Positions 28,060 through 63,076 of a DNA stretch of 64,000 nt are shown here, in pieces. The stretch comes from an uncultured Pseudomonadota bacterium (GTDB lineage Bacteria; Pseudomonadota; Gammaproteobacteria; Steroidobacterales; Steroidobacteraceae), in the NCBI GenBank assembly GCA_903898785.1, contig CAIUGU010000142.1, forward strand, positions 24,795-88,794, read 5' to 3'. The translations under genes were made by a program, and so were the position numbers. The notes under the pieces were generated by a model, which searched no databases, was not told the DNA's origin, and was given only the letters and a program-made list of their open reading frames with translations. Position 1 is the stretch's first letter. The number at the start of each line of letters is the position of its first letter.

Positions 28060-28108
28060 ATCCCCAACCCCTAGGGAAGAATCAGGGGGTTGTGTGCAGT
28101 GCATTTTG

Positions 28109-28275
28109 GCAGGTTGATGCAAAAGTCTGTCCGTGCCTTTTGCATCTGGAGACAGCGAAAAGCGTGGTTTTCACTGTCTCCCGAAATCAACGAGTTACGA
28201 CTCGTGGATTTCGCCGAGTCGTCCGTGACTCGGACTAACAGGGTGCTGCAAGGGGGCTTGCATCACCCTGTTAGA
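28109..28275 (+). repeat. Copy A of a ~167-bp multi-hairpin intergenic repeat
   Basis: Five stems: 28116-28125/28137-28146; 28148-28161/28068-type partner at 28168-28181; 28182-28195/28200-28213; 28214-28220/28227-28233; 28236-28252/28257-28273. About 91% identical to 43385-43551 (15 differences by hand count), no indels. Confidence 0.93.
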
Positions 28276-30577: not shown

Positions 30578-30785
30578 CGACCGGCGGGCTTTGCCCGCAA
30601 GTGGGCCGCTGGCGGGAGGGCCTCCGGCAAGGGGGCCTACCGGCAAGTCAGAACGGAAACGGTACAGGCATTCTTCCCTTCAGCCGCGGATCTGAATCTC
30701 CTGCTCGGCCTCTGACCTGCCGGTAGGCCCCCTTGCCGACAGGCCTACTTGCCAGCGGCCCACTTGCGGACGAAGTCCGCCGGCC
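30578..30785. repeat. Head-to-head REP/BIME-like inverted repeat
   Basis: Arms 30578-30652 and 30711-30785. The inner 27 nt (30626-30652 vs 30711-30737) match at 26/27 as reverse complements; the outer arm has CGGGCtttGCCCG vs CGGACttcGTCCG. Confidence 0.88.
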
Positions 30786-30796
30786 GCTTCCGCGAC

Positions 30797-43183: not shown

Positions 43184-43384
43184 GGCTCAACTGGTTCCCG
43201 GAGGAAGGCGTACCCGCAGGATGTCTCGCCGCGGGACCCTATCTTAGGCGACGACCTTCGAGCCGCTGCAGGCAGAACGCGGAACTGTGCCCGGCCGCAC
43301 AGGAAGCCGGCGTTTCCGCGGGTGGCACGACGGGTACTCCTGCGCGCTGAACGACGGGTTACACGGAGTCAAATCAATCCCTTA

Positions 43385-43551
43385 GCAGGTTGATGCAAAG
43401 GTCTGTCCGTGCCTTTTGCATCTGGAGCCAGCGAAAAGCGTGGTTTTCACTGGCTCCCGAAATCAACGAGTTATCTCTCGTCGATTTCGCCGAGTCATCC
43501 ATGACTCGGAGCAACAGGGTACTGCAAAGGGCTTTGCATCACCCTGTTAGA
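43385..43551 (+). repeat. Copy B of the ~167-bp multi-hairpin intergenic repeat
   Basis: Same 167-nt length as copy A, ~15 substitutions, boundaries GCAGGTTGATGCAAA...CACCCTGTTAGA; stem-preserving changes. Confidence 0.93.
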
Positions 43552-60502: not shown

Positions 60503-61450
60503 CTAGTCGCCAGTCGCCCGCCCCTGCTGACCACCTGCCTGCGGGGCGTTCAGCCAGTCCTGGATCAGCCGGTACGAGATCGACTGCGGGGGCGGCAGCA
60601 GGATCCTGCCCGAGGCCAGGTCCTCGCGGCTGAACCAGCGGGCGTCCTCGAGTTCCCCGTCGCGGCAGGCGATGTCGGTGCTGAGCGCGCGAGCCGTGAA
60701 TCCCAGCATCAGCGAAGACGGGAACGGCCACGGTTGCGAGGAGTGGTAGGTCGGGGCAGTGGCCTCGATGCCGGTTTCCTCGAGTACCTCCCGCAGCACG
60801 GCGTCCTCGAGGCTCTCGCCCGGTTCGACGAAGCCCGCGATGGTGGAATAGCGTCCCGGCGGCCAGATCGCCTGCCTGCCGAGGAGCGCCCGCTCGTCCT
60901 GCCCTTCGCCCCGGCTCACGAGGACGATGATCGCCGGGTCGATGCGCGGGAATTGCGCCGTCCCGCATTCGGTGCACTTGAGCAGGTGGCCAGAGCGGCT
61001 GCTGGCGGTCGGTGCGCCGCAGGAACCGCAGAAGCGGTGGCGCGCCCGCCAGTGGACCATGGCCCTGGCATAGGCCAGCAGGCCGGCTTCGTCACCGGGC
61101 AGCAGGCTTCCCAGGCTGCGGAGGTCCTGGAACTCGGCGTCGCCCGGCAACGCAGGCGGCGGATCGCCGGTGAATTCAACGGCGAAGCAGGGGCGGCTGC
61201 GGAATTCCCCCAGCAGGATCAGGTCCTCGGAGCGCTCGATATGGGGGGCGGCCTCGTGCCACTCGAGCAGCCGGGCTGTCGGTGTGTCGCCGCCCGGTGC
61301 AATCAGGTTGCGGAGTTGCCAGACCGGCACCAGCCACGCGTTGCCCTGGTCACGCAGGACGTCGAGCCATGCCGTGTCTTCCCGGGGGTGGGCCGTCCGG
61401 TCCAGATAGGGGCCGGCGAAAATGTTGGGCTGGCGCGGCGGACCTGACAT
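60503..61450 (-). CDS. nudC: NAD(+) diphosphatase (NudC)
   Basis: Zinc ribbon FCGSCGAPTASSRSGHLLKCTECGTAQFPRIDPAIIVLV and Nudix box GFVEPGESLEDAVLREVLEETGIEA; start MSGPPRQPNI chosen, the listed ORF runs into repeat copy C. Confidence 0.93.
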   Translation of the reverse strand: MSGPPRQPNIFAGPYLDRTAHPREDTAWLDVLRDQGNAWLVPVWQLRNLIAPGGDTPTARLLEWHEAAPHIERSEDLILLGEFRSRPCFAVEFTGDPPPALPGDAEFQDLRSLGSLLPGDEAGLLAYARAMVHWRARHRFCGSCGAPTASSRSGHLLKCTECGTAQFPRIDPAIIVLVSRGEGQDERALLGRQAIWPPGRYSTIAGFVEPGESLEDAVLREVLEETGIEATAPTYHSSQPWPFPSSLMLGFTARALSTDIACRDGELEDARWFSREDLASGRILLPPPQSISYRLIQDWLNAPQAGGQQGRATGD

Positions 61451-61508: not shown

Positions 61509-61672
61509 GTTAACAGGACGCTGCAAGACTCATGGCAGCCCCCTGATCTATTCCGAGTCAGGGATGGCTCGGTGAAATCAACGAGTTCCAGTTCGTTGAT
61601 TTCGGGAGCCGGCGAAAACGACGCTTTTCGCCGGCTCCCGATGCAAAAGGCACGGATAGCCTCTTGCATCAG
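61509..61672 (-). repeat. Copy C (diverged, inverted) of the multi-hairpin intergenic repeat
   Basis: Reverse complement GATGCAAGAGgctatccgtgcCTTTTGCATCGGGAGCCGGCGAAAAgcgtcgTTTTCGCCGGCTCCCGAAATCAACGA...TCGTTGATTTCaCCGAG...CTCGG...CCTGTTA aligns with copies A/B. Confidence 0.88.
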
Positions 61673-61684
61673 GCCGGAGGAGTC

Positions 61685-63076
61685 TCAGGCTGCCCAGATC
61701 TCGTCGTCGGTGGGCACCTTCTTGGTGGTGATGACCTTGCCGATGCGCGACACGTTGATCAGGTGCTTGTAGTCGAGGTTCTCGGAAATCGAGTTGCCGC
61801 CCCACGAGCCGCAGCCCAGCGTCGTGGTCGGCGCGAAGCCGTTGGTGAGCGAACCGCCTGCCGTGAGGGCGCTGGCCTGGTTGACGACCAGCCGGCTGAT
61901 CGGCAATTCGACGCCCGCCTCGCGGATGTGCGCTTCCGTGTTCGAGTGCAGCGCCGCGGAATGTCCGGCCCCCTCGACGATCAGGTTGGCCTTCGCGTTG
62001 GCGACGGCTTCCTTGAAGGTCTTGTACGGCAGGATCGCCACCACCGGGCACAGCTTTTCCTTGGCCAGGATGTCCGCGGTGCCGGCGCCCTTCGCGGGCA
62101 GGAGGATGATGCGGGCCGTCGCGGGCACGTCGATGCCGGCCAGTGCGCCGATCTCGCGCGGCGTCTTGCCGACGACGTCCTTGTTGAGGTGGCCGCCGGG
62201 GAACACCACGTCGCGCAGCTTCTGGATGTGGCCTTCGTCGGCGGTGAACCAGACCTTGCCGGTCTGCTTGAAGAGGTCGATCGTCTCGTTGTACTTCTCT
62301 TCGGGCGTCAGCACGAACTGTTCGTGCGAGCAGATGATGCCGTTGTCGAACGACGCGCCCGTCAGGATCTTGCCGACGGCGTCCTTCAGGTCCACGTCGC
62401 GGTCGATGATGACCGGCACGTTGCCGGCGCCCACGCCGTACGACGGCTTGCCGGACGAGTACGCCGACTTCACCATCGCGCCGCCGCCCGTGGCGACCAC
62501 GACATCGACGGACTTCATCAGGTCCTGCGTCTTCTCGACCGAGCCGTTGCGCACGGTCTGGATCAGGTTGTCCGGGCCGCCGTGGTGCTTGACGATCTTC
62601 ATGAACTCGTTCGTCAGCAGCTCGGTGCACTTCTGTGCCTTGGGATGCGGCGCGAAGATGACGGCGTTGCCGCCCTTGAGCGCGAACATGCCGTTGCACA
62701 TCGGTGTCGCGACCGGGTTCGTGACGGGGCAGACGGCGCCCACGACGCCCATCGGCTTGGCGACGAACACGAGGTTGTTCTCTGCGTCCTCGCCGATGAT
62801 GCCGCGCGACTTCTTGCCCTTCAGGTTGTTCCAGATGACGCGCGCCTTGCCCTTCTTCTTCAGGACCTTGTCCTCGAAGTTGCCGATGCCCGTCTCGTCG
62901 ACCGCCATGCGGGCGAGCATCTCGGCGTTGTCGTACACGTACTTCGCCATGTCGCGCACGATCGCGTCGACCTGTTCCTGCGAGAAGCCTTCGTAGATGG
63001 CCTGCGCGGCGCGTGCCTTCGCAACCAGACTGCTGATCTCGTTGTCGGGGGCGGCGGCGCGTTCGGGCATGCTCAT
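61685..63076 (-). CDS. Acylating (CoA-dependent) aldehyde dehydrogenase family protein
   Basis: 464 aa; GVVGAVCPVTNPVATPMCNGMFALKGGNAVIFAPHP, VVATGGGAMVKSAYSSGKPSYGVGAGNVPVIID, GASFDNGIICSHEQFV catalytic Cys region. Confidence 0.9.
   Translation of the reverse strand: MSMPERAAAPDNEISSLVAKARAAQAIYEGFSQEQVDAIVRDMAKYVYDNAEMLARMAVDETGIGNFEDKVLKKKGKARVIWNNLKGKKSRGIIGEDAENNLVFVAKPMGVVGAVCPVTNPVATPMCNGMFALKGGNAVIFAPHPKAQKCTELLTNEFMKIVKHHGGPDNLIQTVRNGSVEKTQDLMKSVDVVVATGGGAMVKSAYSSGKPSYGVGAGNVPVIIDRDVDLKDAVGKILTGASFDNGIICSHEQFVLTPEEKYNETIDLFKQTGKVWFTADEGHIQKLRDVVFPGGHLNKDVVGKTPREIGALAGIDVPATARIILLPAKGAGTADILAKEKLCPVVAILPYKTFKEAVANAKANLIVEGAGHSAALHSNTEAHIREAGVELPISRLVVNQASALTAGGSLTNGFAPTTTLGCGSWGGNSISENLDYKHLINVSRIGKVITTKKVPTDDEIWAA

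Follow-up and report, generated by a model that had tools for sequence, protein, structure and literature searches.

Copy C is probably (about 70%) an old insertion of a non-autonomous element with MITE-like ends and a BOX-like interior, which would be moved in trans by a putative YTAR-specific DDE transposase. It lies on the minus strand of the window, that is, the whole 64,000-nt stretch of Steroidobacteraceae DNA that was analysed, which carries three related stretches of about 165 nt, A and B on the plus strand and C on the minus strand. The mobility of these copies was followed by comparison with one other genome of the same genus, a sister species (G001). The features concerned, in window positions, are as follows.

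28110..28270, plus strand: body of copy A (stretch 28106-28275), with flanks TTGG and TTAG; site empty in G001
43386..43546, plus strand: body of copy B, CAGG...CCTG (stretch 43382-43551); site empty in G001
43382..43385, plus strand: left target duplication of copy B, TTAG; the G001 empty site reads AATCAATCCC-TTAG-ACTG
43547..43550, plus strand: right target duplication of copy B, TTAG; the G001 empty site has a single TTAG
60503..61450, minus strand: nudC (NAD+ diphosphatase match), downstream of copy C, with a probable start codon at 61450
61510..61513, minus strand: TTAA resembling a target duplication, at the 3' end of copy C; the equivalent place in G001 reads CTGA-CCCGG
61514..61677, minus strand: body of copy C, CCGG...CCTG, five hairpins; old, diverged insertion, site empty in G001
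61514..61545, minus strand: hp5 of copy C, CAGGggGCTGC/GCAGCgtCCTG, diverged stem with pairing kept
61553..61572, minus strand: hp4 of copy C, loop ATCC
61574..61603, minus strand: hp3 of copy C, 11-bp stem GAAATCAACGA/TCGTTGATTTC
61604..61639, minus strand: hp2 of copy C, perfect 15-bp stem GGGAGCCGGCGAAAA/TTTTCGCCGGCTCCC, with AAAAGCGTCGTTTT (family consensus AAAAGCGTGGTTTT)
61640..61670, minus strand: hp1 of copy C, stem of the GATGCAAGAG/CCTTTTGCATC type with one G-U, TCC in the loop
61678..61681, minus strand: 5' flanking tetranucleotide of copy C, decayed counterpart of the 3' TTAA
61685..63121, minus strand: acylating aldehyde dehydrogenase-like gene, upstream of copy C, TGA stop codon at 61685-61687

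A preliminary description had placed copy C at 61509-61672, which is about 5 nt off at each end but denotes the same element (body at about 61514-61677). Every stem that it named can be found on the minus strand: hp2 is a perfect 15-bp stem and hp3 an 11-bp one, the G-U wobble of hp1 is retained, and hp5 has a different sequence whose pairing persists. The two changes relative to copy A, an A-T pair that became G-C and a C-A mismatch that was repaired, are both real, and the element does sit a few nucleotides past the aldehyde dehydrogenase TGA and ahead of nudC. Copy C folds with an MFE of -102.9 kcal/mol, while its shuffled versions average -65.3 (z -8.18, with 0 of 200 shuffles as low), and the corresponding z values of copies A and B are -7.9 and -9.7. 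Copy C shares 69-80% identity with the other copies.

The source genome (G000) is a fragmentary, Steroidobacteraceae-type assembly of 3.15 Mb and 77.7% completeness. Searching its DNA with copy B gave 17 copies, in both orientations, two of them at contig ends, and a covariance model (R1) built from 14 of these has the same 17 copies as its strong hits in that genome. The terminal inverted repeats of these copies are CAGGKTGATGCAAAA at both ends. Two-sided compensatory changes occur at 11 of 58 pairs in the 14 sequences, above all 500 shuffles within the genome, and structure-preserving changes are very strong across phyla.

Mobility of the element, with a 4-bp YTAR duplication on insertion, is seen directly in the comparison with G001. 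The flanks of copy C have collinear counterparts in G001, 81-89% identical, but about 175 bp are absent. The element is also absent in G001 at A, at B and at L004, L009, L010, L011 and L017, and the L014 element is common to both genomes. At copy B the window reads AATCAATCCC-TTAG-[CAGG...CCTG]-TTAG-ACTG and G001 reads AATCAATCCC-TTAG-ACTG, an exact insertion with a 4-bp duplication. At further empty sites the insertion point reads CTAG, CTAA or CTGA, and in several cases this tetranucleotide takes in the adjacent gene's stop codon. The empty sites in G001 and the exact TTAG duplication at copy B identify copy C as a mobile insertion and not as a local terminator; given the 17 or more strong copies of the genome, this is what the preliminary description had expected of a diverged, inverted family member. 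The insertion of copy C is an older one, TTAA being left at one end while the other flank has decayed. The flanking tetranucleotides of L002, L003 and L005 are unequal at the third base (G on the left, A on the right), for which a single duplication event does not account. At L002, L012 and L013 the element is absent in G001, but the gap is occupied by other sequence; the G001 sites orthologous to L013 and L002 (L156 and L157) hold purine-rich GGAAGC tandem repeats, so these intergenic gaps gather different repeats.

R1 relatives within the bacterial family are only sporadic; the hits there share the loops AAAAGCGTGGTTTT (hp2) and RTCCNTG (hp1 and hp4), and their stems differ. A scan of named genomes with a pattern made of the hp2 and hp4 loops gave at least 115 stretches among the matches listed, in Gammaproteobacteria including Peristeroidobacter, Pseudohongiella, Lysobacter and Xanthomonadaceae, in Mariprofundus (Zetaproteobacteria) and in Desulfarculus/Desulfocarbo, together with chance coding matches in Clostridia, Bacteroidales, Sulfitobacter and Terasakiella and with hits in Deltaproteobacterium Smac51, which are repeats of poor fit to the architecture. 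Although trained on the source genome alone, R1 matches most of the other scan stretches, down to E = 7e-23 in Desulfocarbo. The five-hairpin architecture of about 150-165 bp is found in 16 named genomes, with 1-109 R1 matches each, these counts including some antisense or partial matches: a Pseudomonadales MAG has 109, two Desulfarculus MAGs have 79 and 39, G198 has 54, a Muproteobacterium 34 and Mariprofundus erugo 29. A class-wide draw was positive in 16 of 185 genomes, the source genome included. Carriage by plasmids or phages was dropped as an explanation, as the plasmids and phages searched gave no matches and the viral contigs one hit.

In other taxa, 17 elements have both ends resolved; they measure 146-163 bp where both ends are fixed, and 7-12 of their 12 terminal bases are matched. 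Their YTAR duplications (five TTAA, four TTAG, four CTAG, three CTAA and one unequal pair) are identical in 16 of the 17, a figure that partly reflects the choice of ends, which had to match at three or more of the four bases; end pairs chosen by end pattern alone are identical in 13 of 21 cases, where 25% would be expected (p 4e-4). The terminal repeats differ by lineage around the same core, being CAGG.TG.TG.AAAA, GGAAGC.CTGA or others, and G207 harbors both end types, one inserted beside the other. The number of internal modules varies as well, since G198 elements span 160, 209 and 258 bp through added hairpin modules of about 49 bp. Solo palindromes of 27-28 bp, identical or close to hp5 and with YTAR on both sides, occur at L380-L383 (G205) and at L371 and L418 (G198), and are minimal mobile units or else, like a solo LTR, products of deletion. 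A 140-bp element with GGAA.CTCTGA terminal repeats (L417 121-269, G198) has no hairpin core, so the ends can move on their own.

The 17 end-resolved elements are all intergenic. In 8 of them the YTAR falls on a stop codon, where non-coding YTAR sites would lead one to expect 18% (p 0.006). Intergenic DNA has 6.6 YTAR per kb and coding DNA 1.7, a roughly fourfold difference; since the tetranucleotide is scarce in genes and often includes a stop codon, insertions settle at the 3' ends of genes. Of the 47 elements that could be classified, with crude gene calls based on ORF length and codon-position GC, 17 lie in convergent, 27 in co-directional and 3 in divergent gaps, against 21, 57 and 22% expected (p 0.004); for the divergent gaps the expected share is 22-28%. 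They face the neighbouring genes at random (13 sense-only, 14 antisense-only and 17 convergent), and the orientation bias of an RNA function, sought among them, was not seen.

Such a conserved hairpin core would not be expected of a simple MITE derived by deletion. An alignment of 73 R1 matches, itself fitted to the structure, has pairing in 92% of cells and two-sided changes at 57 of 58 base pairs, and its covariation score is 0.50 against 0.115 for shuffled and at most 0.08 for slid alignments. Conservation of the hp2 and hp4 loops is ascertained, because both sat in the search pattern. The hp1 loop lay outside that pattern; of 119 parsed cases, 93 have TCC in the region of this loop, which reads GGA on the opposite strand, with a background of 17%. 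hp4, whose loop lay inside the pattern, and the extra modules bear the same motif, so that GGA recurs in hairpin loops, as in CsrB/RsmZ-type RNAs, on one strand only. GGA in a loop resembles the consensus of CsrA sites. The G198 elements were located by their ends and not by their loops, yet all five stems are present in them, and their hp2 loop is a related one, reading AAAAGYRTGRTTTT in several.

The model favoured here proposes a geneless element of about 150-165 bp, in which lineage-specific terminal inverted repeats enclose the ordered array hp1-hp2-hp3-hp4-hp5. A trans-acting DDE transposase, YTAR-specific and thus IS5-like in its target choice, would recognize the inverted repeats and move the element, whose insertion at YTAR leaves the 4-bp duplication; as YTAR often includes a TAA or TAG stop codon, the reading frame is left intact. 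The core may be kept as a folded form that is recognized by the mobilising machinery or by a host protein, the candidate forms being single-stranded or cruciform DNA, or read-through RNA.

Candidates for the mobilising partner were sought in the transposase families PF01609 and PF01797. PF01609 gave no match in the source genome (77.7% complete), G198 or G201, and no matching element ends were found at the PF01609 or PF01797 loci examined in these incomplete genomes. A decayed IS5-like transposase remnant abuts a GGAAGC-type element end in Mariprofundus erugo, adjoining dnaA (L288 946-2050). An IS5-type partner sought through PF01609 was set aside, with none in the source genome and no matching ends at the Mariprofundus remnant, and a RAYT/Y1 partner was rejected because some carriers have none. 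A search for an IS with matching ends at the unpaired end sites of G198 and G207 yielded none; it led to more hairpin elements, solo hairpins, the hairpin-free 140-bp element and contig breaks.

Several observations count against the insertion model: these searches turned up no autonomous partner, the 5' flank of copy C is decayed, the flanking tetranucleotides of L002, L003 and L005 are unequal, other sequence fills the G001 gap at L002, L012 and L013, and so conserved a core is not what a simple MITE would lead one to expect. Other origins have to be weighed as well. According to one of them, copy C would be a local terminator or a 3' structure protecting the aldehyde dehydrogenase mRNA, as its strong hairpins a few bases past the stop codon might suggest. 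This is hardly credible: the site is empty in the sister species, the same sequence stands at many unrelated genes in either orientation, and the intrinsic-terminator signature of a stem followed by a T-run, sought at copy C, was found 0 times. As an ancestral local feature, the terminator is refuted by the empty site and the missing T-run. It is also most unlikely that these are REP/BIME-like palindromes moved by a single-strand Y1/HUH (RAYT) transposase, with the apparent duplication being part of the element end. Hairpins at both ends and the solo hp5-like palindromes flanked by YTAR would fit such a system, as would the Y1 genes of 8 of the 12 carrier genomes, the source genome among them. 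However, four carriers (G199, G201, G203 and G205) are without a PF01797 match, and the GTAG or CGTC tag arrangement of REPs (PMC3733652) is absent, the ends being YTAR-CAGG or YTAR-GGAAGC. Moreover, the duplication is a true one, because the tetranucleotide varies between copies and yet matches on both sides, and the empty site already has one copy of it.

The remaining alternatives concern the reason why the core is kept. A structured non-coding RNA, or RNA sponge, could be spreading as a mobile element, its GGA loops binding CsrA/RsmA as those of CsrB/RsmZ-type RNAs do. The TCC of the hp1 loop, its recurrence in hp4 (part of the search pattern) and in the extra modules, and the very strong covariation speak for such an RNA, which is nevertheless very unlikely: the hp2, hp3 and hp5 loops do not fit, a promoter-like site is absent at copy C, and up to 109 matches per genome are unlike a regulator. 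The random orientation to neighbouring genes further argues against selection for one transcript. It could also be argued that the stems are kept by template-switch correction of palindromes and not by function, in which case compensatory changes would say nothing about a folded molecule. Such correction is documented for perfect stems (PMC8794818), and the solo palindromes and the gains and losses of modules are replication-prone behaviour; part of the covariation could come from it. As the full explanation it is distinctly unlikely, as pure repair would maintain stems but not loop sequences or order, whereas the TCC loop of hp1 and the order of the five hairpins persist across phyla while the stems vary freely. 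Unlikely, too, is a bolder extension, namely an ancient mobile class that crosses phyla as a folded five-hairpin unit, with loops and terminal repeats that might be read by a putative structure-dependent mobiliser or a CsrA-like host RNA-binding protein, and with end modules exchanged between lineages.

Several known repeats resemble the element. Prokaryotic MITEs (Correia, ERIC, Nezha, Chunjie and QMITE; PMC10969869) are likewise small, non-coding, intergenic and multicopy, fold well, and have terminal inverted repeats and short target duplications; the present element matches them in its terminal inverted repeats, in the duplication seen against an empty site and in being short, transposase-free and multicopy. 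It differs in its ordered array of five covarying hairpins kept across phyla, its varied terminal repeats and the partner IS, which was not found. Streptococcal BOX elements (PMC3049150) also have end modules around a core of variable copy number, alternative ends, enrichment between convergent genes, terminal inverted repeats and a target duplication. The present elements differ in that they occur in Proteobacteria and Desulfobacterota, that every module is a hairpin and that the target is YTAR. REP/BIME sequences with RAYT (PMC3733652) are extragenic hairpins, often between genes; here, in contrast, there is no GTAG/CGTC tag, the length is fixed at about 150-165 bp, terminal inverted repeats go with a 4-bp duplication, and RAYT is missing in some carriers. 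The IS5 family shares the target tetranucleotide, IS5 being known to duplicate YTAR (PMC10359306) and IS711 to target it (PMC2266754), but the present element has no transposase, and an IS with matching ends was not found. Rfam 15 has no family that matches at gathering score, weak chance hits apart, which rules out a known Rfam RNA. A full-text search of the open literature, which takes in few subscription papers, found no description, also when the loop and end sequences were used.

This repeat class thus reaches tens to about 100 copies per genome in several groups, though it is not in Rfam. It combines proven mobility with an interior structure kept across phyla, for which ordinary MITEs have no need, and so offers a test case for whether the hairpins of mobile repeats are functional or are maintained by template-switch repair. 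Stop codons within the YTAR target may explain why insertions are tolerated. In practice, the repeat breaks assemblies and gives rise to false calls of terminators or sRNAs.

Some other repeats were met along the way. At L128-L136 (G008) and L143 (G059) there are shorter units of two hairpins, in which GGCAGAAAGTCGCC..GCTTTCTGC-ACGC precedes the hp2 hairpin, possibly a sub-family. A repeat of high copy number in Deltaproteobacterium Smac51 (L186, L188, L193, L207, L239, L258 and L278) contains the hp2 loop and CCATCCATGG but does not fit the five-hairpin order and is a separate repeat family. The window itself also contains, at 30578-30786, a 46-bp inverted repeat with arms that are 83% complementary and 117 nt apart.
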